Origin: Pantoea cypripedii
GTDB taxonomy: Bacteria > Pseudomonadota > Gammaproteobacteria > Enterobacterales > Enterobacteriaceae
NCBI RefSeq assembly: GCF_002095535.1
Contig: NZ_MLJI01000003.1
Span: forward strand, 186,001 to 250,000
Reading direction: 5' to 3'
Length of the DNA stretch: 64,000 nucleotides
Shown in pieces: positions 49,352-62,691 of the stretch. Numbering within the stretch: the stretch's first letter is position 1; each line of letters starts with the position of its first letter. Position numbers and translations under genes: made by a program. The notes under the pieces were generated by a model, which was not told the DNA's origin, made no database searches, and saw nothing but the letters and a program-made list of their open reading frames with translations.

Positions 49352-50179
49352 ATGGCAGCAAAGCACACAATCATCGGTATCGTCAGCGGTGAGTTCGCCA
49401 ATCCCAACAGTGTAAAAATGCTGAATGAAGTGACGCGACAATTGAATGCGCGTGGATGTTTGTCATTGTTGCTCAACGTTGATTCACGCGAGCATTACTT
49501 GCCGTTACTCAGTAAGGCTACCGAACTGGGCGTTAGTGGATTGATCTTCCTCACCTCTCTTTATCGCCAGGAGGAATTACCTTTCCCGGCGATCTGGCTG
49601 AGTGGGGAGAACGCGCTCAGGGCGGATAACTATGATGCAGGTGCTGAGATTGGCCGTCTGCTGCTGGCGCAGGGGCATCAGCGTTTTGGTTTTATGCGCG
49701 GCGAAGATTCTGCAACCGAACCGCGCCAGATGCAGGGCTTTGTCGCGAGCTTAACTGCGGCGGATAAGACCCTCGATCAGCGACTGATTGCCGGTACGAA
49801 TGATCGTGAACGGGCTTATCAGGCGATGATGACATACCTGAAAAAGACACGCGCTGCTGAACGCATCAATGCGCTGTTCTGCGAAAATGACGTGCTGGCC
49901 TTCGGTGTCATGCAGGCAGTGCGCGACTTTGGTCAGGGTGTACATATTGGCGTGGTGGGTTTTGATGATGTCGACGAGGCTCGCTCTCCGACCTGGCATC
50001 TGACCAGTTGGGCGCAGCGTGGTGATTTGCTGGTGGCAGAGGCGTTAAATCGCTTGCTGGATAACAAAGCAGATGACAGCGGAGCGTGGCAGCAGGGTGA
50101 ATTGCAGGTACGTCACTCGCATCATGGCAAACATGTACACGGTGAGATGTCAAAGTGCGGCTGTGCCAGCCGCCATTGA
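49352..50179 (+). CDS. LacI/PurR-like sensor domain lacking the DNA-binding head
   Basis: 275 residues beginning directly with the periplasmic-binding-protein-like core (TIIGIVSGEFANPNSVKML, GLIFLTSLYRQ, GHQRFGFMRGED, NALFCENDVLAFGVMQAV, IGVVGFDDVDEARSPTWHLT). The ~60-residue LacI helix-turn-helix is absent, and the clean AAGGAG ribosome-binding site before ATG 49352 argues against a missed N-terminus. No signal peptide, so it is cytosolic. It may modulate a partner regulator by binding a ligand, or be a decayed regulator. The C-terminus is His/Cys-rich (HSHHGKHVHGEMSKCGC), suggesting metal binding. Confidence 0.75.
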   Translation: MAAKHTIIGIVSGEFANPNSVKMLNEVTRQLNARGCLSLLLNVDSREHYLPLLSKATELGVSGLIFLTSLYRQEELPFPAIWLSGENALRADNYDAGAEIGRLLLAQGHQRFGFMRGEDSATEPRQMQGFVASLTAADKTLDQRLIAGTNDRERAYQAMMTYLKKTRAAERINALFCENDVLAFGVMQAVRDFGQGVHIGVVGFDDVDEARSPTWHLTSWAQRGDLLVAEALNRLLDNKADDSGAWQQGELQVRHSHHGKHVHGEMSKCGCASRH

Positions 50180-50215: not shown

Positions 50216-51001
50216 TCAAATCGCATCAATCATCCCGCCATCCACCCGCATGATGGTGCCGGTGATATAGCTGGCCTGTTGGCTGGCGAGAAACGCCGCA
50301 GTGGCGCCGTACTCTTCCGGTGCACCATAGCGGCCCGCCGGAATGCCCTGACGGCTTTTCTCCGCCACGGCATCCGCAGTGCTGTTCTCACGTTTCGCCT
50401 TGATGGCATCCAGCTGGCTGACGCGATCGGTAGCGATACGCCCCGGCACCAGCACGTTAACCGTCACACCGTCCGCCGCCACTTCACTCGCCAGAGTTTT
50501 TGACCAGCCAAGTAAACTCATACGCAGGGCATTGGACAGCGCCAGATTAGGGATCGGGGCAATCACGCCAGACGACGTCGAGGTGATAATACGGCCCCAG
50601 CCGTGTTGACGCATGGCGGGCAGCACTTTGTCCGTCAGCTGGATCAGTGAGGAAACCATCAGGGAAAACTGCTGCTGCCAGACACCGGCATCGGTACCCT
50701 GAGCGGTGGCAGGAGGTGGGCCACCGGAATTGTTGACCAGAATATCCACATCACCCCAATGCTGACGAATGTCATTCAACACATCATCAAAGGTTTCGGG
50801 TGCAGCCAGATCCAGCTGCCAGGCCTGCGCGGTGCCGCCTTGCTGCTGGATCAATGCCACCGTTGCAGCCAGCTTTTCCAGGTTGCGGCCGGTCACCGCG
50901 ACTTTTACCCCTTCCTGCGCCAGAGACAGCGCCATCGCCCGGCCTAAACCACTTCCCGCACCACAAACCAGCGCGACCCGTTGTTGAATTTGCAAATCCA
51001 T
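50216..51001 (-). CDS. SDR-family oxidoreductase
   Basis: 261 residues. NAD(P)-binding GAGSGLGRAMA near residue 14, NNSGGPPP in place of the usual NNAG, the catalytic Ser of ITSTSSGVIAP and a substitution of the Tyr region (the usual YxxxK is replaced by NALRMSLLGWSK, where Lys remains but Tyr is not obvious), then VNVLVPGRIATDR. Loss of the catalytic Tyr would be unusual; the family has such members. Its promoter region carries a GntR-type dyad (51014-51044), so it belongs to the cluster regulon. Likely an alcohol or hydroxy-acid dehydrogenase. Confidence 0.85.
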   Translation of the reverse strand: MDLQIQQRVALVCGAGSGLGRAMALSLAQEGVKVAVTGRNLEKLAATVALIQQQGGTAQAWQLDLAAPETFDDVLNDIRQHWGDVDILVNNSGGPPPATAQGTDAGVWQQQFSLMVSSLIQLTDKVLPAMRQHGWGRIITSTSSGVIAPIPNLALSNALRMSLLGWSKTLASEVAADGVTVNVLVPGRIATDRVSQLDAIKAKRENSTADAVAEKSRQGIPAGRYGAPEEYGATAAFLASQQASYITGTIMRVDGGMIDAI

Positions 51002-51013
51002 AAACTACTCCTG

Positions 51014-51044
51014 ATTGTATTTTCAGGATCATGATGTGCAAAAA
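51014..51044. promoter_or_regulatory. GntR regulon site A (upstream of SDR)
   Basis: TTGTATTTTCAGGATCATG begins a 31-base stretch that aligns without gaps to the sites at 52088 and 59912: about 22 identities in 30 to the former. It keeps the TTGTAT half and the GATCAT centre, with GTGCAA at the other half. It lies between the SDR start and the GntR gene. Confidence 0.6.
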
Positions 51045-51053
51045 TTATGCCGA

Positions 51054-51950
51054 TTATTTACGGGGCCGCTTAATATTTACCTGGTCGTAGGCGAATTGCA
51101 GATGCTGCTGCATCAGGCTGGCGGCCAGTTCCTGCTTGTTTTCCCGTAGCGCATCAATGATCGCCACATGTTCTTCACACCATTCTTTGACGCGACGCTT
51201 GTTGTGATAGCTGCCGAATTCCATCAGGCGGCGTAAGCGGTTCTGCTGTTGAATCGCCTGTAACACAAACAGATTGCCGCTGGCTTCCGCCAGTAGCTCA
51301 TGAAAGGAGGCGTCGGTTTCGAAGATGTCCTTCGCCGGGACCTGGGTGATATCCGGGTGAGTAATCAGCCACAGATGCTGTGCACGCAGCCGTTTGAGTA
51401 ACTGGCGATCGACATGTAAATGCGGCGTCAGCAGGGCGGCGGGTTCAATCATCAGGCGGAAACCGTAACTGTTGCGCAACGCCACATCCGAGTTCAGCGT
51501 TTGCAGGAAGCGCCAGCCATGCCCGGCATTACGTGCAATCAGGCCATCTTCCGATAGCTTCACCAGCGTGCGCGTCAGTATTCCGCGGTCCACCTCATAG
51601 CGCTGCACAATTTCGGTCTGGGTAAAGGACTCAGGCAGCGTACCGGCAATACGATCGCGGACCAGCAATTCATACAAATTTTGATCATTACTTTTGGGTT
51701 GTTCGATACTCAGCTGTTGCAGTTCATCGGCGCTCTTTAACAGAAAGAAACCCTGATTGGGCCGGGCTTCCACTGCGCCAAGGCGGGTCAGTTCTTTCAA
51801 TCCGGCGCGCACCGGCGTGCGCGAAACGCCCAGCGCATCGGCAAGATGTTGTTCACGTAAATGATGACCTGGATCGAATCTTGCTTCATATATCAGGTCA
51901 AGGATTTGCCGGGCGATCCGGCGACTGCTCGCAGTTGAGTCAGGCTGCAT
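51054..51950 (-). CDS. GntR-family (FCD) regulator with two winged-helix domains
   Basis: 298 residues from ATG 51950 (AGGGA nine bases upstream). First GntR helix-turn-helix: RIARQILDLIYEARFDPGHH, LADALGVSRTPVRAGLKEL, VEARPNQGFFL. A second winged helix follows (DRIAGTLPESFTQTEIVQRYEVDRGILTRTLVKLSEDG region, residues ~80-145). The C-terminal FCD ligand domain includes DASFHELLAEASGN and a metal-type His/Asp set. Its own promoter has a dyad (51969-51995) like those upstream of the SDR, ABC transporter and aminotransferase genes, so it probably autoregulates and governs the 50.2-61.2 kb cluster. Confidence 0.88.
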   Translation of the reverse strand: MQPDSTASSRRIARQILDLIYEARFDPGHHLREQHLADALGVSRTPVRAGLKELTRLGAVEARPNQGFFLLKSADELQQLSIEQPKSNDQNLYELLVRDRIAGTLPESFTQTEIVQRYEVDRGILTRTLVKLSEDGLIARNAGHGWRFLQTLNSDVALRNSYGFRLMIEPAALLTPHLHVDRQLLKRLRAQHLWLITHPDITQVPAKDIFETDASFHELLAEASGNLFVLQAIQQQNRLRRLMEFGSYHNKRRVKEWCEEHVAIIDALRENKQELAASLMQQHLQFAYDQVNIKRPRK

Positions 51951-51968
51951 GGAGAACGTTCCCTGAAA

Positions 51969-51995
51969 GTGTATTGTTGTGGTCTGAATATACAA
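51969..51995. promoter_or_regulatory. GntR regulon site D (autoregulatory)
   Basis: GTGTAT (51969-51974) and ATACAA (51990-51995) match the dyad TTGTAT-N15-ATACAA with one mismatch. It lies 19 bases upstream of the GntR start. A second symmetry, TATTGT/ACAATA (51972/51992), overlaps it. Confidence 0.55.
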
Positions 51996-52086
51996 TAACA
52001 CGGGAAAAGTTTTGCAGCGAAATAAAGCAGGAACTGCACGATAAGCGTGCAAGTGCACCAGGAAGGGACGTGTTTTTGTCATCATG

Positions 52087-52117
52087 ATTGTATTTGTTGA
52101 TTCATAAAATCCAAAAT
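52087..52117. promoter_or_regulatory. GntR regulon site B (upstream of ABC transporter operon)
   Basis: TTGTATTTGTTGATTCAT followed by AAAATCCAAAA. It aligns to site C (59912-59942) with only about five differences over 30 bases, all without gaps. It lies about 20-50 bases before the binding-protein start at 52136. Confidence 0.7.
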
Positions 52118-52135
52118 ATTAACCAGGAGACGACT

Positions 52136-52948
52136 ATGTCCAGCTCGTATTTCACTAAAGGCCGCATGCGCGGATTGATGTTCACTCTGGCGCTGCTGCC
52201 ACTGGCCAGCCATGCCGCAGGGGAAAGCGTCACCCCCGGCAAACTAACTTATGGCACGGCTGCCACCTTTATGCCGTTCGAATTCGTCAAAGACGGCAAG
52301 CTCACTGGCTTCGATATCGACCTGATCACGGCACTGAGTAAAGAACTCAAACTGACGCCAGCCCCAATGGCGATGGAGTTCAAAGGTCTGATCCCGGCTT
52401 TGCAGGGTAAACGCCTCGACATCATCAACTCAGCGATGTACGTCAACCCAACCCGCGCCACCCAGGTGGATTTTGTGCCTTACCTGAAGATCGGTAGCCG
52501 TGTGGTGGTGCGCAAAGGTAATCCGGCGGGTATCACCGGCCGTGATATGTCGCTGTGCGGCAAAAACGTCGCCGTCACCCTTGGCGGTATCGAAGAGAGC
52601 CAGGCGCGCGTGGACAACAAAAACTGCGTAGCTGCCAGCAAAGCCGCCATCAACGTGCTGACCTTCCCGGCAGCCACCGACTCAGCCGTCGCCGTCGCTC
52701 AGGGCCGTGCCGATGCGGAATACCTCTCTACGCCGGGCACTGTGGCGCTGTTCAGCGAGAAACCTGGCATGTTCGAAGCGGTAGGGGCGGAGTTTGAAGC
52801 CGACACCCATATCGCCTTTGCGGTACGTAAAGGCGACAGCGAAACCCGAGCACAGCTGGAGAAGGGCCTGCAAGCCCTGGTGAAAGATGGCACCTACAAG
52901 CAACTGATTGAGAAATGGAACTTCCCGGATTCCGTTGCCATTTTTTAA
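52136..52948 (+). CDS. ABC transporter periplasmic binding protein, polar amino-acid type (HisJ/GlnH family)
   Basis: 270 residues from ATG 52136 (AGGAG eight bases upstream). Signal peptide (LMFTLALLPLASHAAG). Family motifs: LTYGTAATFMPFEFVKDGKLTGFDIDL (read in parts), EFKGLIPALQGKRLDIINSAMY and VDFVPYLKIGSRVVVRKG. It captures an amino acid or small conjugate for the permease and ATPase encoded next. First gene of a seven-gene run ending at 58822; a GntR-type site lies just upstream. Confidence 0.9.
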   Translation: MSSSYFTKGRMRGLMFTLALLPLASHAAGESVTPGKLTYGTAATFMPFEFVKDGKLTGFDIDLITALSKELKLTPAPMAMEFKGLIPALQGKRLDIINSAMYVNPTRATQVDFVPYLKIGSRVVVRKGNPAGITGRDMSLCGKNVAVTLGGIEESQARVDNKNCVAASKAAINVLTFPAATDSAVAVAQGRADAEYLSTPGTVALFSEKPGMFEAVGAEFEADTHIAFAVRKGDSETRAQLEKGLQALVKDGTYKQLIEKWNFPDSVAIF

Positions 52949-52978
52949 TGCGTTTCAAGCCGTTAACCGGAGATAGCT

Positions 52979-53704
52979 ATGTCGATTGATTTAATGTGGC
53001 AGTACTTCCTTTCCCCTGAGTTCTTGCAGGGTGCGTGGATGACACTGCTCATCACCCTCTGCTCACTGTTGTGTGGCGTGGTGCTGGGTCTGGTACTGGC
53101 CCTGCTACAGGAGGCTCCTTTCCGCGCCGGAAAAGCGCTGGCCTTTTTCTACCTGTGGCTGTTTCGTGGCACGCCAGTGCTGTTCCAGATCATCTTTGTC
53201 TACAACGTGCTGCCAGGCTTCGGCTTACGCTTCTCCGCGTTTACCTGTGCAGTGCTGGCGCTTTCACTCAATGAAGGCGCGTATATGGCTGAGATCCTGC
53301 GTTCTGGTCTGCAGGCGGTGAAAAGCGGCCAACGCACCGCCGGTATGGCGCTGGGTATGACCAACGCACAGATCATGCGCAAGATCGTATTACCGCAGGC
53401 GGCACGTATCGTACTGCCGCCGATGGGTAACCAGATGATCAGCATGCTGAAATCGAGTGCGCTGGTGTCGGTGATTGCGGTGCAGGAGCTGCTGCTGGTG
53501 GCGAATCAGGCTGCCAGCGCCAGTTTCCGCTACTTCGAAGCGCTGTGCGCTGCCGGTATTTACTATCTGCTGCTGACCACGCTGTTCATGATTTTCCAGT
53601 CATGGCTGGAGCGCACCCTCGACCCGAAACAGCGCCGCCGCAAAAGCCAGAAAGCACAATCCCATGAAATGAAGCTGCCTAAACCTGCCCGGGAGGTGTC
53701 ATGA
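52979..53704 (+). CDS. Amino-acid ABC transporter permease (HisMQ/GlnP family)
   Basis: 241 residues, about five transmembrane segments. The permease signature for contact with the ATPase is SGLQAVKSGQRTAGMALGMTN (given as GQRTAGMALGMTNAQIMRK region, residues ~108-130), followed by ARIVLPPMGNQMI. Only one permease gene is present, so it likely works as a homodimer. The stop overlaps the ATPase start (ATGA). Confidence 0.9.
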   Translation: MSIDLMWQYFLSPEFLQGAWMTLLITLCSLLCGVVLGLVLALLQEAPFRAGKALAFFYLWLFRGTPVLFQIIFVYNVLPGFGLRFSAFTCAVLALSLNEGAYMAEILRSGLQAVKSGQRTAGMALGMTNAQIMRKIVLPQAARIVLPPMGNQMISMLKSSALVSVIAVQELLLVANQAASASFRYFEALCAAGIYYLLLTTLFMIFQSWLERTLDPKQRRRKSQKAQSHEMKLPKPAREVS

Positions 53705-54447
53705 ACCAGGAACGTAAACCGCTGCTGGAAATGATCGGCATCGATAAAACCTTTGGTCGTCAGACCGTACTGAAAAACTGCTCGCTGAGCGTCAATCGCG
53801 GTGAAACCGTGGTGCTGATTGGCCCGTCCGGTTCGGGCAAATCGACCCTGCTGCGCTGCGTCAATCTGCTGTCCCCGGCGGACAGCGGCGATGTGTTTTT
53901 TGCCCGGCAAAACATCAGCCGTGGCGAAGTCCCGCCGCATCAGCTGCGCCAGCGTATTGGCATGGTGTTTCAGAACTACGAGTTGTTTTCCCATCTCACT
54001 GCGGCGGAAAACATCATGCTGGCCCCGATGACGGTGCTGGGCGTCAACCGCATTGAGGCGCGCAAACAGGCCGAAATGCTGCTGGCAAAGGTGCGTATCA
54101 ATGAGCGCGCCGACCACTTCCCGGATGAGCTTTCCGGCGGCCAGCAGCAGCGTGTGGCGATTGCCCGCGCGCTGGCGATGAAACCGGAACTGATGTTGTA
54201 CGACGAACCGACCTCAGCACTGGATCCGGAGATGATCCGTGAAGTGCTGGATGTGATGGCAGAGCTGAGTGCCGAAGGCATGACCAGCATGGTCGTAACC
54301 CATGAAATGGGTTTTGCCCGCCGCGCTGCCAATCAAATTCTGTTTATGGAAGAGGGCGAAATTCTCGAACGCGCCAGCGCCCAGGACTTTTTTACCGGCC
54401 AGGTCAGTGAACGTGCCAAACGTTTCCTCGACCAGATCTTACATTAA
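53701..54447 (+). CDS. Amino-acid ABC transporter ATPase (GlnQ/HisP family)
   Basis: 248 residues in an ATGA overlap with the permease gene. Walker [15 protein letters not shown]-loop [18 protein letters not shown], signature [15 protein letters not shown], Walker [16 protein letters not shown] and H-loop [13 protein letters not shown] are all intact. It powers uptake of the cluster's substrate. Confidence 0.93.
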
Positions 54448-54460
54448 TAGCGGAGTACCT

Positions 54461-55636
54461 ATGAGCAGTTACCAGGCAGACAGTGTGCGCATGAAGCGGG
54501 ATCTTACCGCGCTGGTCGCCATCAATACCGAAAACCCGCCCGGTCACGAACGTGAGGCCGCCGAGTGCGTAGCAGGCTGGCTGCGCGAAGCGGGTTTTGA
54601 CCTCTCGTTCAGCGAGTATGCGCCAGGGCGCACCAACGTGATTGCGTTGCTGAAGAACGGCGACGGACCCTGTTTTGCCTTTAATACCCACCTCGATACC
54701 GTCCCGGCCGGGACCGGTTGGGCGAGCGATCCCTTTACCCTGACCGAGCGTGAAGGGCGTTTATATGGTCGCGGTGCCTGTGATGCCAAAGGCCCGCTGG
54801 TGGCGATGGTAGAAGCGCTGCGCATGCTGGCGGCCAATCGTCACAGCTGGTCCGGCACGCTGATGGGCGTGTTTACGGCGGATGAAGAAGTGGCGAGTGA
54901 AGGGGCGAAGTTTTATGTGCGCGATCAGCCGCCCGCCATCGACTTTGCGGTGATTGGCGAACCGACCTCCAACGCCACCTTCTCGGCCCATAAGGGCAGC
55001 CTGCGCCCGCGTGTGCGGGTGAAAGGCGTGACGGCGCATTCCGGTACGCCGGAGCTGGGTATCAACGCGATTTACCAGTCGGCGAAACTGCTCGGGTTGA
55101 TCGAGGAGGCGCATCATCAGCAGGTGCGCTGCCGCTGCCACGCGCTGGTGGGCAACGCCAGTTTGACCGTCACCCGCGTGCACGGCGGACACGCCGATAA
55201 CGTGGTGCCGGATAACTGCGAGCTGCTGCTGGATCGCCGCATGGTGCCTGGCGAAGACGAAGCCGAGGTGAAAGCAGAACTGCAACAGCTGCTCGATCAC
55301 GCCAGAGAACAATCCGGTGTGGAGGCGGAAATCATCGCCTGGCAACCGACCACCGGCGGCGCAACCGAAACTGACAGCAGTGAAGCCATTGTGCAGCACA
55401 GCCTGGCGGCCTGCCGTCGGCATGGTCAGCCGGAACCTGGCCCGTTTGGTTTCCAGGGCGGTTGCGATCTGGTGCATTTCCGTACCCTCGGTGCCAAAGG
55501 CGTGGTGGTCGGCCCCGGTGCGCTGGCAGTAGCGCATAAGCCGGACGAGTTTGTCCCGGTGGCGGAGTTTATCGCTGCGGCCTACATCTATCTCGATATC
55601 GCGCTGGCGATGCTGCCTGCGGAGGCTGAGGCGTGA
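54461..55636 (+). CDS. M20-family metallo-amidohydrolase (ArgE/DapE type)
   Basis: 391 residues from ATG 54461 (CGGAG upstream). Di-zinc ligands appear in order: H77 and D79 in NTHLDTVPAG, D108 in GRGACDAKGP, E142-E143 in DEEVASEGAK, then VIGEPTS and a late His in AHKPDEFV. The lid domain has AHSGTPELGINAIYQS. Members remove acyl groups from N-acyl amino acids or split dipeptides. With an enolase-family and creatinase-like enzyme in the same operon, an N-acylated or peptide-like substrate is likely. It starts 13 bases after the ATPase gene. Confidence 0.9.
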   Translation: MSSYQADSVRMKRDLTALVAINTENPPGHEREAAECVAGWLREAGFDLSFSEYAPGRTNVIALLKNGDGPCFAFNTHLDTVPAGTGWASDPFTLTEREGRLYGRGACDAKGPLVAMVEALRMLAANRHSWSGTLMGVFTADEEVASEGAKFYVRDQPPAIDFAVIGEPTSNATFSAHKGSLRPRVRVKGVTAHSGTPELGINAIYQSAKLLGLIEEAHHQQVRCRCHALVGNASLTVTRVHGGHADNVVPDNCELLLDRRMVPGEDEAEVKAELQQLLDHAREQSGVEAEIIAWQPTTGGATETDSSEAIVQHSLAACRRHGQPEPGPFGFQGGCDLVHFRTLGAKGVVVGPGALAVAHKPDEFVPVAEFIAAAYIYLDIALAMLPAEAEA

Positions 55637-56733
55637 AGGCGCAACTGTGGCGCGGCGATCTGCATTACGCCGGGGTGACGCTGCATACCGCAGCATCAGG
55701 CGCGGTGCATGCGCTCGATACCCTGTGGCTACAGCTGGAAGATCAGGGCGTGCAGGGCATCGGTGAAGTGCGGCTTAACATCGCTTATCTGCATGGCTAC
55801 AGCGAACAACAGGTGCTGAACAATCTGCTGGCGACGCTGGCGCAGTGGGAATGGCAGGCCGATGCGCACAGCATGCTGGCCGCCGTGCATGCCGAGGATA
55901 GCCCGCTGCTGGCTCCGTCACGCATGGTGCTGGATATGGCACTGCATGACCTGCTGGCACGTCAGCAGGGCGTCAGTCTTGCCGCCTGGCTGGGTGCTCC
56001 GGCGGCGGCATTGGGTTTCGCCACCAACCAGACGCTGTTCTGGGGCAGCGAAGCGCAACTGCTGGACCAGGCGAAAGGATATGTCGAACGCGGTTTCACC
56101 CAGCTGAAGCTGCGCACCGGGGTGGCGGATTTCGCCACCGATTTGGCACGATTGCAGAGGCTGCGCGAGACCTTCGGCGACCAGATCTCACTGGCGATCG
56201 ACGTTAACGGCCAGTGGTCGCTGGCGCAGGCTCATCAGGCGCTGCCGCAGCTGCAAGCGCTTCAGTTGAGCTATATCGAGCAGCCGCTGGCAGTCGCTGA
56301 TGATCAGCATCTGGCGGAGCTGTACCCGTATGCCATCCCAATCATGCTCGACGAAAGCCTTAACAGCAGCGCGTCCATCGATCGCCTGATCGCCGCCGAA
56401 GGGGCGCTGTGGGGCCATCTCAAGCTGGTCAAATTGGGTGGACTGGCACCGACGCTGGCGGCGGCGCGTCGCCTGCAAAATGCGGCGGTTCCTTTCATGA
56501 TTGGTCAGATGAACGAAGGTCATGCGGCGACGGCAGCGGCACTTCAGCTGTGTCGCGTGCTGCAACCGGCGTTCGCCGAACTTTATGGCGCTGATGGTTT
56601 AACCGATGACCCGGTCAGCGGCCTCACTTATGCCCACGGCCAGGTCACCGTGAATGATTCTCCCGGCCTGGGTGTGCAATTTTCTGCCGCCCGCGCCACT
56701 TTCCTCCAGGAGTTTAGTGATGCAACAGCTTAA
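55633..56733 (+). CDS. Enolase-superfamily enzyme (muconate-lactonizing/dipeptide-epimerase-like)
   Basis: 366 residues; GTG start in a GTGA overlap with the M20 gene. The (beta/alpha)8 barrel carries metal ligands D190 (AIDVNGQWS), E216 (YIEQPLA) and D240/E241 (MLDESL), and basic catalytic positions K159-x-R161 (LKLRTG) and K264/K267 (LKLVKLGG). The second residue of the usual KxK is Arg, which departs from dipeptide epimerases. It could epimerise, racemise or eliminate from an acyl-amino acid. Exact chemistry is not readable from sequence. Confidence 0.85.
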   Translation: MKAQLWRGDLHYAGVTLHTAASGAVHALDTLWLQLEDQGVQGIGEVRLNIAYLHGYSEQQVLNNLLATLAQWEWQADAHSMLAAVHAEDSPLLAPSRMVLDMALHDLLARQQGVSLAAWLGAPAAALGFATNQTLFWGSEAQLLDQAKGYVERGFTQLKLRTGVADFATDLARLQRLRETFGDQISLAIDVNGQWSLAQAHQALPQLQALQLSYIEQPLAVADDQHLAELYPYAIPIMLDESLNSSASIDRLIAAEGALWGHLKLVKLGGLAPTLAAARRLQNAAVPFMIGQMNEGHAATAAALQLCRVLQPAFAELYGADGLTDDPVSGLTYAHGQVTVNDSPGLGVQFSAARATFLQEFSDATA

Positions 56734-57889
56734 TAATGTGGTTCAGGGCAGCGAATCTGCCTTCAGCGCGGATGAGTATGCACTGCGTATGCAGCGCACC
56801 CGTGAGCGTCTTAGCGCCGCCGGTGTCGATGTGATGATCGTCACCGGGCCGGAAAATATCTTCTGGCTTACCGGTCAGCAAACCCCCGGTTATTACACCT
56901 TCCAGGCGCTGCTGCTGCCGGTAGAAGGGGATCCGGTGTTTGTGATTCGCCAGCTGGAATACTTCAACTTTATCGCCAACACCTTTATTTCTGACGCCGC
57001 CATCTATCAGGACGGCGATAACCCGGTGGATTTCCTTGTCGGCATGCTGCAACAGCGTGGCTGGCTGAATAAACGTATCGGGCTGGATAAACGCGGCTGG
57101 TTTCTGCCGATTGCGGTTTATGAACTGCTGCAAAGCAAGCTTGGCACCATCGCCGATACCGCCGGGGTGATCGAACCGCTGCGTGCGGTGAAGTCTGCGG
57201 CAGAAGTGGAAAAAATCGCTACCGCAGCACGTTATGTCGATGCAGGTATGCGTGCCGGTATGGCGGCGATTCGCAGCGGCAGCGATGAGAACGCGCTGGT
57301 TTCCGCAATGATGGGGGCCGCCATTGCGGCCGGTTCTGAATATGTCGGGATGGAGCCGCTGGTGTCCACCGGACCGCGCAGTGGTGTGCCGCACGGTACC
57401 TGGCGTCGCCGCGTGATGCAGGATAATGAGCCGGTATTCCTCGAAATGGCCGCCTCTCATGATCGCTACCATGCCGCGCTGATGCGTTCGGCGTGGATTG
57501 GTCGCCCACCGGCGATTGCGCTGGAGATGGAAAAAGTGTGCCAGGAAGCGTTGCAGGCGGCACTGGATGCCATCCGTCCGGGTGCCACCTGTGCCGAGCC
57601 GCATATCGCCTGCCAGAAAGTGATCGATCGCGCCGGTTTCACCGAACATTTCAAAAAGCGCACCGGTTATTCCATCGGTGTCTCTTTCGCACCGGACTGG
57701 GGCGAAGGCGGCATTCTCAGCCTGTACAGCGGTGTCACCACCGAATTACAACCGGGCATGACTTTCCATATTCCACCGGCCCTGCGCATTTACGGCGAAT
57801 TCACCGTTGGCGTCAGTGAAACCGTGGTGGTCACGGAAACCGGTTATCGCCAGCTTGGCAGTCTCTCTCGTCCATTAACTTTGCTGTAA
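56720..57889 (+). CDS. M24-family creatinase/ectoine-hydrolase-like protein
   Basis: 389 residues from ATG 56720 (AGGAG seven bases before), overlapping the previous gene by 14 bases. N-terminal creatinase domain (RERLSAAGVDVMIVTGPENIFWLTG), then the pita-bread fold. Most metal ligands of M24 peptidases are gone: the two Asp positions fall in LEMAASHDRYHAALMRS without the Asp pair, and FHIPPAL replaces the usual TIEPG. Loss of metals is typical of creatinase and DoeA (ectoine hydrolase), which are metal-independent C-N hydrolases. It probably hydrolyses a C-N bond in the cluster substrate. Confidence 0.85.
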   Translation: MQQLNNVVQGSESAFSADEYALRMQRTRERLSAAGVDVMIVTGPENIFWLTGQQTPGYYTFQALLLPVEGDPVFVIRQLEYFNFIANTFISDAAIYQDGDNPVDFLVGMLQQRGWLNKRIGLDKRGWFLPIAVYELLQSKLGTIADTAGVIEPLRAVKSAAEVEKIATAARYVDAGMRAGMAAIRSGSDENALVSAMMGAAIAAGSEYVGMEPLVSTGPRSGVPHGTWRRRVMQDNEPVFLEMAASHDRYHAALMRSAWIGRPPAIALEMEKVCQEALQAALDAIRPGATCAEPHIACQKVIDRAGFTEHFKKRTGYSIGVSFAPDWGEGGILSLYSGVTTELQPGMTFHIPPALRIYGEFTVGVSETVVVTETGYRQLGSLSRPLTLL

Positions 57890-57898
57890 GGAATTTCC

Positions 57899-58822
57899 AT
57901 GAAAGATATCAACGAATGCCGTGAACGCCTGCGTGGCATTTTCAACATTACCGTCACGCCGTTTGATGCCGCCGGTGCTATCGACTTCGCTGCCCTGCGG
58001 GAAAACATTGAGCGCGTCATTGGTCTTGGTTATGACGGCATTCTGATTGGCGGGACGTATGGCGAGTTTCCGGTGATGTCACTGGCTGAGCGCCGTGAAT
58101 TGTTCCATCAGGTTATGGACTGCGTGCAGGACCGTATCCCGGTAATGCTGTGCAGCGCCAGCTCAGACCCGCGTGATGCGCGTGAACTGACCATTCTGGC
58201 GGGCGATCTGGGTGGTTTACCGATGGTCACTGCGCCGTACGTTAGCGAAATCACCGACGCGCAAATCCTGGCTTATTTCAAAGAGATGGCCCCGTTGTCG
58301 AAAACCGGCATCCTGGTCTACAACGCACCGGGTATTGGGATCACGCTGTCACCGGCTTTGCTGGAGCAACTGGCGGATGTCGCCGGCGTGGTGGGGATCA
58401 AACAGGGGGATCTTAACCCGACCGCCATCGACCAGATCGCCAACCGTCTGCGTGGGCGTCTGCGTCTGTTCTGCGCTTCGGACCTCGCGTTTTTAGGTCC
58501 AATGATGGCCGGTTTTGATGGTATCAGCACCACCAACAGCGGCGCACTGCCGGAGCTGGTGTTGGCCACCTTCCGCGCGGTGGAAAAAGGCGATGCGGGT
58601 ACGGCGCGCGATCTTCATCAGCTGTGGTACGACTACCGTGCCCTGGCGCGTCAGCATGGTCAGCCGCAGCTGGTAAAAGCGGCAATGGCGCTGCGTGGCT
58701 TTAACGGTGGTCGCGTACGTGCGCCGCTGCTGGATATTTCTGCCGAAGCCCAGACAGCGCTGACCAGCGTGATGCGCAAACTGGCCAGCGATGCGCGTAC
58801 TGGCGTTACCCTCGCTGAGTAA
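57899..58822 (+). CDS. DapA/NanA-family class I aldolase or dehydratase
   Basis: 307 residues of the dihydrodipicolinate-synthase family. GGTYGE (51-56) is the carboxylate-binding loop, Y141 (LVYNAPG) the catalytic Tyr and K168 (VGIKQGD) the Schiff-base lysine. Members cleave or form C-C bonds with pyruvate-like 2-oxo acids. As the last gene of the transporter operon it may act on a 2-oxo acid generated by the aminotransferase at 59951. It overlaps the convergent glutaminase gene by 17 bases. Confidence 0.9.
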   Translation: MKDINECRERLRGIFNITVTPFDAAGAIDFAALRENIERVIGLGYDGILIGGTYGEFPVMSLAERRELFHQVMDCVQDRIPVMLCSASSDPRDARELTILAGDLGGLPMVTAPYVSEITDAQILAYFKEMAPLSKTGILVYNAPGIGITLSPALLEQLADVAGVVGIKQGDLNPTAIDQIANRLRGRLRLFCASDLAFLGPMMAGFDGISTTNSGALPELVLATFRAVEKGDAGTARDLHQLWYDYRALARQHGQPQLVKAAMALRGFNGGRVRAPLLDISAEAQTALTSVMRKLASDARTGVTLAE

Positions 58823-59882
58823 GCGCCACCTGTAGAAACGCGGTGATCAGCGGGTGCGGGGCGTCCGGACGCGATGCCAGTTCGGGATGGCCCTGCACCC
58901 CCTGCCAGAACTGATGATCGGGCAGGGTTATCCCCTCAACGATATCGTCGGTCTGCGCGTTGACCTGCACGCCACTGGCGCTGAGTTGTGCCAACAGCTG
59001 CGGGTTGAAGCGATAACGATGGTTGTAGTGCATGACACCGTCATGAAATGGCAGCACCCCGCAACGGTGACGACCATCGGCAAAGGCGACAAAGCTGTGC
59101 AACGCGGCATCGGGGGCGACCTCCGCCAGAATCGCCTGTTCACAGGCTGGCTGCTGGCGCACGGCAGCCGTCGCCATACTCTGCATCCCGAGGCACAGCC
59201 CGAGGGTGGGGAGTGGGCGGGTCACCGTGGCTTGCGCGACGCGGATTTGTCCCTGGACCGCCGCCATCGATGAGCCACCCGGCAGCAACACGCCGTGCAG
59301 CCCCTCCAGCTCATCCAGGCTGGCGGAAAGCGAGGCGGGTGGCAGGAAGTGGATGTCGAGCGCCAGATGTAATACGGATGCCGCATCACCCAGCGCCGCC
59401 AGCGTCGCCGGATAAGCCTGACGATGGTCCGCTTCGCGGCCAATCAGGCCGATGCATAGCGTGCTTGTGGCCTCAGTGGCTGGCGCGGCAGACCAGCGAC
59501 CATAGTGGTCGGCATGCAGGGTGAGCAACGGCTGGGTGTCATCGCGCAGTACCAGCGTCTGACCGCTGTCGTGGCTGAACAACCGGATGCCGGGCAGGTC
59601 GGCAATCTCTGCGGCGCGTGCGCTGGGCAAGACGATCACTGCGCCAGCGTTCGGTAGCGAGTCGGCGCTGCTGACCTCCTGTTGCAGCGTATCGCTGCGA
59701 TACAGGCCGCTGGTGACGCAGTAACCGGCGGGAATAACGTGTTGATGGCTATCGGGTACATCGCCGTTAAAGCTGGGGCGCAGGCTCCACAACGGCAACC
59801 CGTGTTGATTGGCCCACAGGCTGGCGGTGACACCGTAACGGGCCGGTAAGGGTGAATCATCGAGAATGAATATCAGTGACAC
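58806..59882 (-). CDS. CTP-synthase-like class I glutamine amidotransferase
   Basis: 358 residues. Residues ~140-358 form a glutamine amidotransferase domain with nucleophile C230 (LGLCLGMQSM), and H332/E334 (VQGHPELASR). The segment NHRYRFNPQLL and the overall pattern (GVLLPGGSS) recall the C-terminal half of CTP synthase; no synthetase (ATP) domain is present. The first ~130 residues match nothing I know. It may be a gamma-glutamyl hydrolase or deliver ammonia to a partner. It is divergent from the aminotransferase gene and shares the GntR site C region. Confidence 0.8.
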   Translation of the reverse strand: MSLIFILDDSPLPARYGVTASLWANQHGLPLWSLRPSFNGDVPDSHQHVIPAGYCVTSGLYRSDTLQQEVSSADSLPNAGAVIVLPSARAAEIADLPGIRLFSHDSGQTLVLRDDTQPLLTLHADHYGRWSAAPATEATSTLCIGLIGREADHRQAYPATLAALGDAASVLHLALDIHFLPPASLSASLDELEGLHGVLLPGGSSMAAVQGQIRVAQATVTRPLPTLGLCLGMQSMATAAVRQQPACEQAILAEVAPDAALHSFVAFADGRHRCGVLPFHDGVMHYNHRYRFNPQLLAQLSASGVQVNAQTDDIVEGITLPDHQFWQGVQGHPELASRPDAPHPLITAFLQVALTQRG

Positions 59883-59911
59883 GGCAATTTTCCTGCTGAT
59901 GTTGGATGAAT

Positions 59912-59942
59912 AATTGTATTAGTTGAATCATCAGATACAAAA
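59912..59942. promoter_or_regulatory. GntR regulon site C (aminotransferase/glutaminase)
   Basis: TTGTAT (59915-59920) and ATACAA (about 59936-59941) form the best example of the dyad, with a GA-N-TC centre also symmetric. It lies in the 68-base gap between the divergent glutaminase and aminotransferase genes and could regulate both. Confidence 0.7.
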
Positions 59943-59950
59943 GAGGATTT

Positions 59951-61159
59951 ATGAATAACAGTCAAACGGCCCGGCGCATGCAGCGGGTACGACCTTCGCC
60001 AACCGCGACCATTTCTGACCAGGTACGTGAACTGGAAGCAGCAGGAAAAGCGGTGATCAATCTGGGCGAGGGTGAGCTGGATTTCGCCACCCCGGCGTCA
60101 ATCAGCTATGCCGGTATCGAAGCCATTGTGCAGCAGCAAACCAAGTACACCGCCGTGGCGGGTACCGCAGCATTGAAGGCGGCGATTGCCGGTAAATTTG
60201 CCCGTGACAATCAGTTGCAGTTCGCGCCAGATGAAATCATCGCCGGTAGTGGGGCGAAACAGTTGATTTTTAATGCGCTGCTGGCGACGGTGGATGCCGG
60301 TCAGCAGGTGATCATTCCCGCCCCGTATTGGGTTTCTTATCCGGACATGGTCACGCTGGCGGAAGGCGAGCCGGTGATCGTCCCCTGCACTGAGGCGGAC
60401 GGCTGGAAGCTGCAACCGGCGCAACTGGCGGCGGCCCTGACGCCGGAAACGCGCTGGGTGATCCTCAATTCACCGGGCAATCCAACCGGTGCGATTTATA
60501 GCGCCCAGGAGTTGCGGGCGCTGGCAGATGTGTTGTCCGATCATCCGCATGTGCTGATTATGGCCGATGATATTTATGAACCGCTGCGTTATGACCAGAC
60601 GCCGTTCGCGACCTTTGCCGAAGTGGCACCCCAACTGGCACATCGCACCCTGACGGTGAACGGCGTGTCAAAAAGCCATGCCATGACCGGCTGGCGTCTG
60701 GGTTATGCGGCGGGTCCGCGCTGGCTGATTGCCGCGATGCAGGTGCTGCAATCGCAAAGCACCTCCAATGCCAGCAGCATCGCCCAGGCGGCGGCGGTGG
60801 CAGCGTTGAATCAACCGGCTGATTTTCTGCTGGGCTGGCTGGAAAAACTGGCGCAGCGCCGTAACCAGGTGCTGGCGATGATTGCGGCAACCGACGGACT
60901 GAGCGCCAGCGCGCCACAGGGCGCGTTTTATGTGTTCGCCAATTGCCAGGGGCTGATTGGCCGCCGCACGCCGGGTGGGGAGGTGATCAGCGACGATAAA
61001 GCGCTGGCCTCCTGGCTGCTGGCAGAAGCCCAGGTGGCGGTGCTGCATGGCTCGGCATTTGGGACGCCGGGTTATCTGCGTATCGCCTATGCAGTTGATG
61101 ATGCGCTGCTGGAAACGGCGTGCCAGCGGCTGGGACAGGTGTGTGCCAGTTTGCAGTGA
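59951..61159 (+). CDS. Class I/II PLP-dependent aminotransferase
   Basis: 402 residues of the AspC/AAT-like family. PLP lysine K241 in GVSKSHAMTGWRLGYAAGP, preceded by the conserved Asn/Asp/Tyr set (SPGNPTG, MADDIYEPLRY), and the C-terminal Arg in GYLRIAYA for the substrate carboxylate. AAGAGG lies before ATG 59951. It converts an amino acid to its 2-oxo acid, feeding the DapA-like aldolase. Common GntR-type site just upstream links it to the transporter operon. Confidence 0.9.
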   Translation: MNNSQTARRMQRVRPSPTATISDQVRELEAAGKAVINLGEGELDFATPASISYAGIEAIVQQQTKYTAVAGTAALKAAIAGKFARDNQLQFAPDEIIAGSGAKQLIFNALLATVDAGQQVIIPAPYWVSYPDMVTLAEGEPVIVPCTEADGWKLQPAQLAAALTPETRWVILNSPGNPTGAIYSAQELRALADVLSDHPHVLIMADDIYEPLRYDQTPFATFAEVAPQLAHRTLTVNGVSKSHAMTGWRLGYAAGPRWLIAAMQVLQSQSTSNASSIAQAAAVAALNQPADFLLGWLEKLAQRRNQVLAMIAATDGLSASAPQGAFYVFANCQGLIGRRTPGGEVISDDKALASWLLAEAQVAVLHGSAFGTPGYLRIAYAVDDALLETACQRLGQVCASLQ

Positions 61160-61491
61160 TGGCCCCAGGTGCGCAGTGATGCGCACCCTTATTTATCCTG
61201 TTTTGATTACAACATACTACAACATCGACTAACAAAAACCGGCCACAGCGTCGCTGTGATTATGCTGCATAAGCGAAGCAGTAAATAAAATTCATTCCGT
61301 ATAAATCCCGCACTGAAATTATCCACAAGTTGAATGATGTTTAATTTAATTGTGACGCTTTGCACACATCAGGAATAATAAATGCAGAAAGCCAAACCGC
61401 CTGCGGGGGAGTCATTAAGCTTAGAGGCGCGAGTATGATTCTATGCTCAACGGCGATATTTAATACTTAATACTTTCTGAAAGGTGCTCAC
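61160..61491. other. Gap before formaldehyde dehydrogenase
   Basis: 332 bases, AT-rich in the middle, holding the promoter of the fdhA-type gene. An 18-codon ORF (ATG 61381) has only a weak AGGA upstream and I do not call it a gene. No repeat or RNA was recognised. Confidence 0.45.
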
Positions 61492-62691
61492 ATGTCTGAA
61501 AACCGCGGAGTGGTATACAAAGGTAAAGGCCAGGTTGAAGTTGAGTCGATTGATTATCCGAAAATGCACGACCCCAGGGGCAAGAAAATAGAACATGGTG
61601 TGATCCTCAAAGTGCTCTCCACCAATATATGCGGCTCTGACCAGCATATGGTGCGCGGGCGCACCACCGCCCAGGTTGGGTTAGTGCTGGGGCATGAAAT
61701 CACCGGGGAGGTGATCGAAAAAGGTCGCGATGTGGAACGCTTTGAGATCGGTGATGTGGTCTCAGTGCCGTTCAACGTCGCCTGCGGGCGCTGTCGTTCC
61801 TGTAAAGAACAGCACACCGGCGTGTGTCTGACGGTGAATCCGGCGCGTGCCGGTGGGGCTTATGGCTACGTGGACATGGGAGATTGGGTCGGCGGCCAGG
61901 CCGAATATGTGCTGGTGCCTTATGCCGATTTCAACTTGCTCAAGCTGCCGGATCGTGAGCAGGCACTGGAGAAAATCAAAGACTTAACCTGTCTTTCCGA
62001 TATCCTGCCCACTGGCTTCCACGGGGCGGTGACGGCGGGGGTAGGACCAGGTAGCACTGTCTATGTCGCGGGCGCTGGCCCGGTGGGTATGGCGGCGGCT
62101 GCCTCGGCCCGCCTGCTAGGCGCGGCGGTGGTGATTGTCGGCGATATGAATGCAGCGCGCATCAAACATGCGGCAGAACAAGGTTTTGAAGTGGTTGATT
62201 TAAGTCAGGATACACCGCTGCATGAGCAGATTGCCGCCATTCTCGGCGAGCCGGAAGTGGATTGCGCCATTGATGCCGTGGGCTTTGAAGCCCGTGGACA
62301 CGGCCATGAAGGCGCACAGCACGAAGCACCGGCAACCGTTCTCAATGCGCTGATGCAGGTGACGCGAGTCGCAGGCAAAATCGGTATTCCTGGTCTGTAC
62401 GTCACGGAAGATCCTGGTGCTGTCGATAAGGCGGCAAAAATGGGCAGCCTGAGCATTCGCCTGGGACTGGGCTGGGCCAAATCACACGCCTTCCACACCG
62501 GGCAGGCACCGGTAATGAAATATAATCGCCAGCTGATGCAGGCTATTCTGTGGGATCGTATTCCGATTGCCAAAATAGTCGGAGTAGAAGTGATTTCACT
62601 GGAAGATGCGCCGCGTGGCTACAGTGAATTTGATTCTGGCGCACCGAAAAAATTTGTTATCGATCCGCATTTCTCCTTCTCGAAACCCTGA
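61492..62691 (+). CDS. fdhA: Glutathione-independent formaldehyde dehydrogenase (zinc ADH family)
   Basis: 399 residues. Catalytic zinc ligands C47 (NICGSD) and H68 (LGHEI); structural zinc cysteines C98, C101, C104 and C112 (ACGRCRSCKEQHTGVC). NAD-binding GAGPVGMAAA. The long insert around residues 105-140 (ARAGGAYGYVDMGDWVGGQ) and the closing DPHFSFSK match Pseudomonas-type NAD-dependent, glutathione-free formaldehyde dehydrogenase. It oxidises formaldehyde to formate. AAGG lies before the ATG; it appears to be a single-gene unit. Confidence 0.92.
   Translation: MSENRGVVYKGKGQVEVESIDYPKMHDPRGKKIEHGVILKVLSTNICGSDQHMVRGRTTAQVGLVLGHEITGEVIEKGRDVERFEIGDVVSVPFNVACGRCRSCKEQHTGVCLTVNPARAGGAYGYVDMGDWVGGQAEYVLVPYADFNLLKLPDREQALEKIKDLTCLSDILPTGFHGAVTAGVGPGSTVYVAGAGPVGMAAAASARLLGAAVVIVGDMNAARIKHAAEQGFEVVDLSQDTPLHEQIAAILGEPEVDCAIDAVGFEARGHGHEGAQHEAPATVLNALMQVTRVAGKIGIPGLYVTEDPGAVDKAAKMGSLSIRLGLGWAKSHAFHTGQAPVMKYNRQLMQAILWDRIPIAKIVGVEVISLEDAPRGYSEFDSGAPKKFVIDPHFSFSKP

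Follow-up and report, generated by a model that had tools for sequence, protein, structure and literature searches.

The DgcN-DgcA and N-succinylamino acid racemase routes combine an enolase-superfamily enzyme, which racemises an N-acyl amino acid, with an M20 enzyme that deacylates the L form. Ectoine breakdown proceeds by the DoeA-DoeB-DoeD route (PMC5924519). Here we set these systems beside a cassette of eleven genes that fills positions 50216-61159 of a 64-kb window from Pantoea cypripedii. (The window is the whole stretch of DNA that we analysed, which is bases 186001-250000 of a 645-kb contig; the genome is 6.55 Mb in three contigs.) The plus-strand genes encode the binding protein, permease, and ATPase of an ATP-binding cassette (ABC) importer, an M20 hydrolase, an enolase-type enzyme, an M24 enzyme, a DapA-type enzyme, and an aminotransferase. 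The minus-strand genes encode a short-chain dehydrogenase/reductase (SDR), a GntR/FCD regulator, and a CTP-synthase-like protein. A first-pass annotation of this DNA had named most of these genes; all of those are present where it placed them, and with the GntR regulator there are eleven.

We propose that the GntR/FCD-controlled genes serve to use one small N-blocked, probably cyclic, glutamine-type amino acid, and we give this reading a probability of about 0.38. The gene set, its shared operator, its conservation as a unit, the intact catalytic residues, and the exchange of downstream modules are seen in the sequence; from these we infer the substrate class and the order of the steps. The first-pass annotation had described genes under common sites that could import an amino-acid conjugate and hydrolyse amide and C-N bonds; our results support one regulated cassette whose importer is of the amino-acid type and which has several C-N hydrolases. 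They also extend the picture, as the core recurs in three bacterial classes, the last third of the set can be exchanged, and the glutaminase is a shrunken CTP synthase.

The genes share a 19-bp operator (ATTGTATTWGTTGAWTCAT), which came from a comparison of promoter regions. There are two perfect copies, one for each divergent promoter: 52087-52105 on the plus strand (ATTGTATTTGTTGATTCAT), in the promoter region of the regulator and the binding protein, and 59913-59931 on the plus strand (ATTGTATTAGTTGAATCAT), between the divergent genes for the CTP-synthase-like glutaminase and the aminotransferase. These bear out the "common sites" of the first-pass annotation. There was no further match with up to 3 mismatches in the window; 0.09 were expected, and at least two occurred in 2 of 100 shuffles. 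(The consensus was derived from the window itself, so its occurrence there is not an independent test; the other loci are.) Across the whole genome, the 18-base core matched at 4 places with up to 2 mismatches, only the two cassette copies were perfect, and the same core written backwards gave no match. The best site in each promoter scored 13-15 of 15 in all 26 Enterobacterales loci with both promoters readable, and likewise in a locus that is filed as Martelella alba; since the 26 loci are related, they do not count as independent cases. In each of these loci, the sites outscored every one of 50 shuffles of the promoter (plain shuffles, not dinucleotide ones; maxima 10-13). The scores were 12 and 13 in an Acinetobacter locus and faded to 7-13 in rhizobia and other distant loci. 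Judging by these sites, the eleven genes form one regulon. The regulator (51054-51950, minus strand, 298 amino acids) has a GntR domain (PF00392, 3e-21) and an FCD domain (2e-19). It also has a weak second winged-helix-like match (MarR_2, 7.5e-7, residues 107-143).

To see how the genes are conserved, we scanned 84,980 species genomes with an alignment of the M24 protein. This confirmed 136 loci, of which we kept 80; with 7 plasmid loci there are 87, all picked by their M24 gene, and 75 of them are long enough for counts of gene order. By identity thresholds, M20 and enolase genes are present in all 87 loci, and M20, enolase, and M24 lie in this order on one strand in every one. They are strictly adjacent in 84, and the other 3 are blurred merely by overlong frames. 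The regulator is present in 84 loci, the ATPase in 83, the permease in 82, the binding protein in 81, the glutaminase in 74, the aminotransferase in 66, the DapA-type gene (DAPA) in 62, and the SDR in 49. Genes found in other species are GHRA (16 loci), VOC (15), DAAT (8), and FAH (4), where each count includes the locus that supplied the reference. (Family clustering gave slightly different counts of the 87: 85 for M20, 83 for GntR, 81 for enolase, and 75 for glutaminase.) The order permease-ATPase-M20-enolase-M24 is kept in 71 of the 75 long-enough loci, and together with the binding protein in 65.

The 87 loci span alpha-, beta-, and gammaproteobacteria. The M24 tree tracks these three classes with few exceptions (4 changes, as compared to a minimum of 2 and a shuffled mean of 32.4, with 12 class-less rows uncounted). 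This suggests an old core that has passed mainly by vertical descent and in some cases by transfer. At strict cut-offs the cassette is rare: it was found in 7 of 60 relatives and in 1 of 398 genomes from the phylum, with its own genome counted in both. Records that carry the core include Agrobacterium fabrum C58, Bradyrhizobium, Paraburkholderia, Pseudomonas syringae GR12-2, Erwinia, Pantoea, Rahnella, and Klebsiella. Many of the genera among the scanned loci are plant-associated. Given this list, several well-studied bacteria probably use the substrate, which is likely to come from the plant niche; we found no assignment for it.

We also note some individual loci. Acinetobacter rathckeae has all eleven genes in the Enterobacterales arrangement, with an M24 that is 86% identical, and transfer is likely. 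Candidatus Burkholderia verschuerenii (L052) retains most of the cassette. In three loci from Ancylobacter and Methylocapsa (L066, L068, and L084), the cassette adjoins another ABC importer with two paired M24 genes that are only distantly related (26-30% identical). The M24 product from the window itself is 100% identical to one from a Pantoea metagenome bin and 96% identical to one from plasmid pPAT9B01 of Pantoea sp. At-9b.

The importer would take in a compound with a free carboxylate and no free alpha-amino group. It consists of a family 3 periplasmic binding protein of 270 amino acids (52136-52948), a polar-amino-acid-type permease (52979-53704; PF00528, 8e-23), and a GlnQ-like ATPase (53701-54447; NF007027, 1e-89, with 300 bits not reaching the cut-off of 379), all on the plus strand. 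Here and below, a copy entered the residue counts if it reached 85% coverage and a set identity, so the counts leave out divergent or truncated copies. Arg107 of the binding protein, which we take to be the carboxylate binder, is present in 80/80 copies. Ser198, in 77/80 copies, replaces an Asp of the glutamine-binding ancestor 4zv1; we assume the usual function for this Asp. This replacement suggests that the ligand has no free alpha-amino group.

The M24 protein (56720-57889, plus strand) is most similar, among solved structures, to the ectoine hydrolase DoeA (6twj, E = 1e-54). Its Glu242 aligns with Glu255 of DoeA (6twk numbering), for which we assume a functional role, and E242, H225, and R256 are present in 87/87 copies. 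The first-pass annotation called this protein metal-free, and alignment to a prolidase agrees: the D, D, H, E, and E of prolidase, presumably the metal ligands of the M24 family, correspond to E242, A253, Y317, P352, and S366. The first three of these are invariant (87/87) and the other two are conserved in at least 97% of copies. The protein scores 221.9 bits against one ectoine hydrolase model (TIGR02993, cut-off 613) and 286.8 bits against another (NF038259, cut-off 575). We propose that, via the conserved glutamate, it might open a cyclic amidine, or cut a similar C-N bond, to give an N-acyl amino acid. The first-pass annotation expected a conjugate; this is still one option, and given the DoeA-like enzyme, a ring is equally likely.

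The acyl group would then be stripped by the M20 metallo-hydrolase (54458-55636, plus strand), a presumed N-deacylase of the ArgE/DapE group (TIGR01910, 246 bits, above the cut-off of 218). Its residues H78, D80, D109, E143, E144, E168, and H360, presumably metal ligands and catalytic acids, are present in 85/85 copies.

The enolase-superfamily enzyme (55633-56733, plus strand) is of the muconate-lactonizing type (MLE subgroup) and has the fold of this subgroup, with a capping domain, a barrel, and three acidic metal ligands. We take it that racemases of the MLE subgroup use two acid-base lysines, one in a K-x-K motif on the second strand and the other on the sixth. In the cassette enzyme, the sixth-strand lysine (K264) is present in 86/86 copies, and the motif is K-x-R (K159-x-R161) rather than K-x-K in 86/86. 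The three solved relatives that we aligned have K-x-K. Among the best 120 database relatives, some of which are the same proteins, 118 have K-[VL]-R and the pattern matched nothing in 2. Because of this replacement, we consider a two-lysine racemase activity doubtful, and with it the suggestion of the first-pass annotation that the cassette epimerises. In dipeptide epimerases, the eighth strand presumably ends in D-x-D; the aligned epimerase 3r0k has D-L-D, whereas the cassette enzyme has E-L-Y (E316 and Y318 in 86/86 and L317 in 18/18). With its one remaining catalytic lysine, the enzyme might act on the alpha-carbon of the N-acyl compound by one-base chemistry, either isomerisation or elimination. 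This subfamily is called epimerase in databases although a catalytic lysine is replaced.

Once freed, the glutamine-type amino acid would lose its side-chain amide to the CTP-synthase-like protein (58806-59882, minus strand). The first-pass annotation called this protein a glutaminase; its glutaminase is intact, but it is not a bare glutaminase: it matches the CTP synthase fold over its whole length and is miniaturised, with the amidoligase part cut to about 135 residues and the ATP-binding loop absent. None of the 74 whole frames has a G-x4-G-K pattern in its first 200 residues (the frame from Candidatus B. verschuerenii is short, at 295 amino acids). An earlier count of this Walker A pattern, on copies trimmed by local alignment and in some cases missing the first 50 residues, gave 0/70. 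The glutaminase residues C230, H332, E334, E254, and R289, which we take to be the Cys-His-Glu triad and the glutamine-binding Glu and Arg, are present in 69/69 copies, and they align with Cys379, the His and Glu of the H-P-E motif, Glu403, and Arg470 of E. coli CTP synthase. The protein scores below the cut-off of every CTP synthase family. The same genome has another CTP-synthase-like glutaminase (G000:C1:3359202-3359858), a 228-amino-acid frame with 150 bits against the profile of the cassette glutaminase.

For the remaining steps, we propose that a 2-oxo acid would be formed by the aspartate-type aminotransferase or, alternatively, by a class IV transaminase encoded elsewhere, that the DapA-type enzyme would cleave this acid, and that the SDR would reduce the aldehyde or keto compound that results. 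The last part would fall to VOC and GhrA in other species. The aminotransferase (59951-61159, plus strand) is of class I and resembles the aspartate aminotransferase 6f77 (E = 6e-129), and its K241 and K103, presumably pocket residues, are present in 65/65 copies. The DapA-type enzyme (57899-58822, plus strand; PF00701, 1e-46) is a Schiff-base lyase or aldolase with Lys168 and Tyr141 in 62/62 copies. Where DapA has Arg138, whose role is taken from the literature, the cassette enzyme has Ile146 (Ile in 61 copies and Val in 1). The SDR (50216-51001, minus strand, 261 amino acids; Pfam adh_short_C2, 1e-47) is the presumed reductase.

DAPA is present in 62 of the 87 loci, VOC/GHRA in 16, neither in 9, and both in none, while independence would predict about 11 loci with both modules (uncorrected for kinship). 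The M24 tree requires at least 5 switches between the two modules. The SDR is present in 46 of 57 long-enough DAPA loci and in 0 of 12 long-enough VOC/GHRA loci. Since the modules exclude each other and have been switched repeatedly, DAPA (with or without the SDR) and VOC/GHRA probably complete the same job.

We found sister cassettes in Rhizobium tumorigenes, Shinella sumterensis, Methylobacterium radiotolerans, and Agrobacterium AF1/95 (L093, L094, L095, and L101). In these, an M24 gene whose product is 51-55% identical lies beside VOC and genes that are annotated as the 5-oxoprolinase PxpABC. The VOC proteins of all 4 cassettes share 82-92% identity with their counterpart in Agrobacterium C58, DAAT is 60-62% identical in 3/4, and the binding protein is 28-31% identical to the one in our cassette. 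With tblastn, the four sister stretches have no relative of the enolase, the glutaminase, or the ArgE-type M20. A gene of the carbamoylase or Zn-hydrolase type is present in 3/4, and some of them also have a second M24, a urea-carboxylase-associated protein, or a hydroxyacid dehydrogenase. We did not meet a description of the sister cassette in the literature, where no paper search was aimed at it. If both cassettes meet at one intermediate, then the simplest choice is a glutamate-type compound, formed from an amide (by the glutaminase) or from a lactam (by PxpABC). This is suggestive of convergence on a glutamine- or pyroglutamate-type hub.

Two observations weigh against our proposal. VOC is found in other surroundings too, which weakens the convergence argument. 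Also, seven genomes (Bradyrhizobium and Tardiphaga) have the core and no cassette-type glutaminase anywhere; there was only one 547-amino-acid frame, which we take to be PyrG. The amide step is therefore not essential everywhere. Two loci without the glutaminase (L058 and L071) have, downstream of DAPA, a gene of the LamB/YcsF type, which is related to 5-oxoprolinase subunit A. In L071 one gene lies between, and the L071 copy was confirmed with Pfam. In a third locus (L041), such a gene lies about 8 kb away.

The cassette could instead be for the use of N-acyl-D-amino acids, as in the racemase routes described above: the enolase would racemise, the M20 would deacylate the L form, and the M24 and the glutaminase would trim the rest. 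We consider this unlikely, because the enolase scores far under the DgcA cut-off of 400 and has K-x-R in every copy, unlike its three solved relatives, and because the conserved M24 would have no place. It is still less likely that the genes serve detoxification instead of nutrition, with an antimetabolite such as a glutamine analogue or a non-protein amino acid from plants as their target. The patchy, accessory distribution (7/60 relatives and 1/398 phylum genomes) and the many plant-associated carrier genera would fit such a role, but a dedicated importer and a full downstream metabolism seem more typical of nutrition. Relatives of the enolase are often named L-Ala-D/L-Glu epimerase or epimerase-like, and the M24 and M20 families include peptidases, so we also considered the salvage of murein dipeptides, with the enolase as the L-Ala-D/L-Glu epimerase and the M24 and M20 as dipeptidases. 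This is improbable: the M24 lacks the metal ligands of the aligned prolidase, E-L-Y replaces the D-x-D of the solved epimerase, and the epimerase models score under their cut-offs.

Two rivals start from the similarity of single enzymes to known catabolic pathways. Hydroxyproline catabolism passes through a 4-hydroxyglutamate-type breakdown with like families: an aspartate aminotransferase, a 4-hydroxy-2-oxoglutarate aldolase (HOGA) of the DapA family, and a glyoxylate reductase, which in other species could be GhrA. A study of human HOGA singles out Asn78 and Ser198 (PMC3188589). However, these positions are Tyr54 (62/62) and Gly170 (conserved in at least 97%) in the DapA-type enzyme, and DapA and GhrA occur together in 0/87 loci, so this reading is more improbable again. 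A variant of the ectoine or hydroxyectoine pathway would explain the DoeA-like M24, and M24, deacylase, and transaminase resemble DoeA-DoeB-DoeD. Yet the M24 is far under both ectoine hydrolase cut-offs, the binding protein scores 75 bits as compared to 191 for EhuB, the genome has no DoeB/EutE above the cut-off (the best hit to TIGR02994, on another contig, has 217.6 bits vs. 402.7), and family scans found no EutB, EutC, or EnuR type among the eleven genes. We rate this as the remotest of the explanations considered. Assignment to known ectoine or hydroxyproline breakdown, which the first-pass annotation had named as the outcome that would count against it, thus fails on the features that we tested, and so do the murein-dipeptide and D-glutamate pathways.

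Some features lie around the regulon. A terminator-like hairpin (61168-61187, plus strand, a consensus match only) is 3' of the aminotransferase gene; such hairpins are mildly enriched in the region (18 vs. 11.7 expected). Just downstream and outside of the regulon is a gene for the glutathione-independent formaldehyde dehydrogenase FdhA (61492-62691; 761 bits, cut-off 637), and directly before the cassette is a gene for a LacI-type ligand-binding protein with no DNA-binding match in Pfam (49352-50179). Each of these is found at only 2/87 loci.

We found no published pathway with a matching gene set in the open-access literature (most subscription papers were outside our reach), which agrees with the first-pass annotation. 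Tentatively, this regulon may encode a new catabolic pathway that serves bacteria of three classes, most of them associated with plants, and its glutamine-type substrate may be a cyclic metabolite that has not so far been recognised as a nutrient for bacteria. The pathway would have three undescribed activities: a DoeA-like opener of a new ring substrate, a one-lysine K-x-R enolase whose substrate is an N-acyl amino acid, and a glutaminase that arose when a whole CTP synthase was shrunk. The cassette makes this question testable, as it has a single operator, a single binding protein, and three core enzymes.

Each of the closest known systems shares part of this cassette. Ectoine catabolism (DoeA/EutD, DoeB/EutE, DoeD/Atf, and DoeC/Ssd, often controlled by EnuR) shares the metal-free M24 of the DoeA line, a deacylase, a transaminase, and an amino-acid-type importer. 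However, the cassette M24 is only 33-35% identical to proteins annotated as DoeA, and the cassette has an ArgE-type M20 instead of DoeB, a GntR/FCD regulator instead of EnuR, and an enolase, a glutaminase, and a DapA in addition. The DgcN-DgcA and N-succinylamino acid racemase routes share the enolase-superfamily enzyme beside an M20 deacylase, whereas the cassette has K-x-R, an added M24 and glutaminase, and no N-acetyltransferase among its eleven genes. CTP synthase and the CTP synthase C-terminal region-related proteins (NF004836) share with the cassette protein the glutaminase, the catalytic and glutamine-binding residues that we tested, and the whole-length fold. Unlike them, the cassette protein has a reduced amidoligase with no ATP-binding loop and sits in a catabolic-looking regulon, which makes it a clear case of a biosynthetic enzyme fold that was trimmed within such a regulon.

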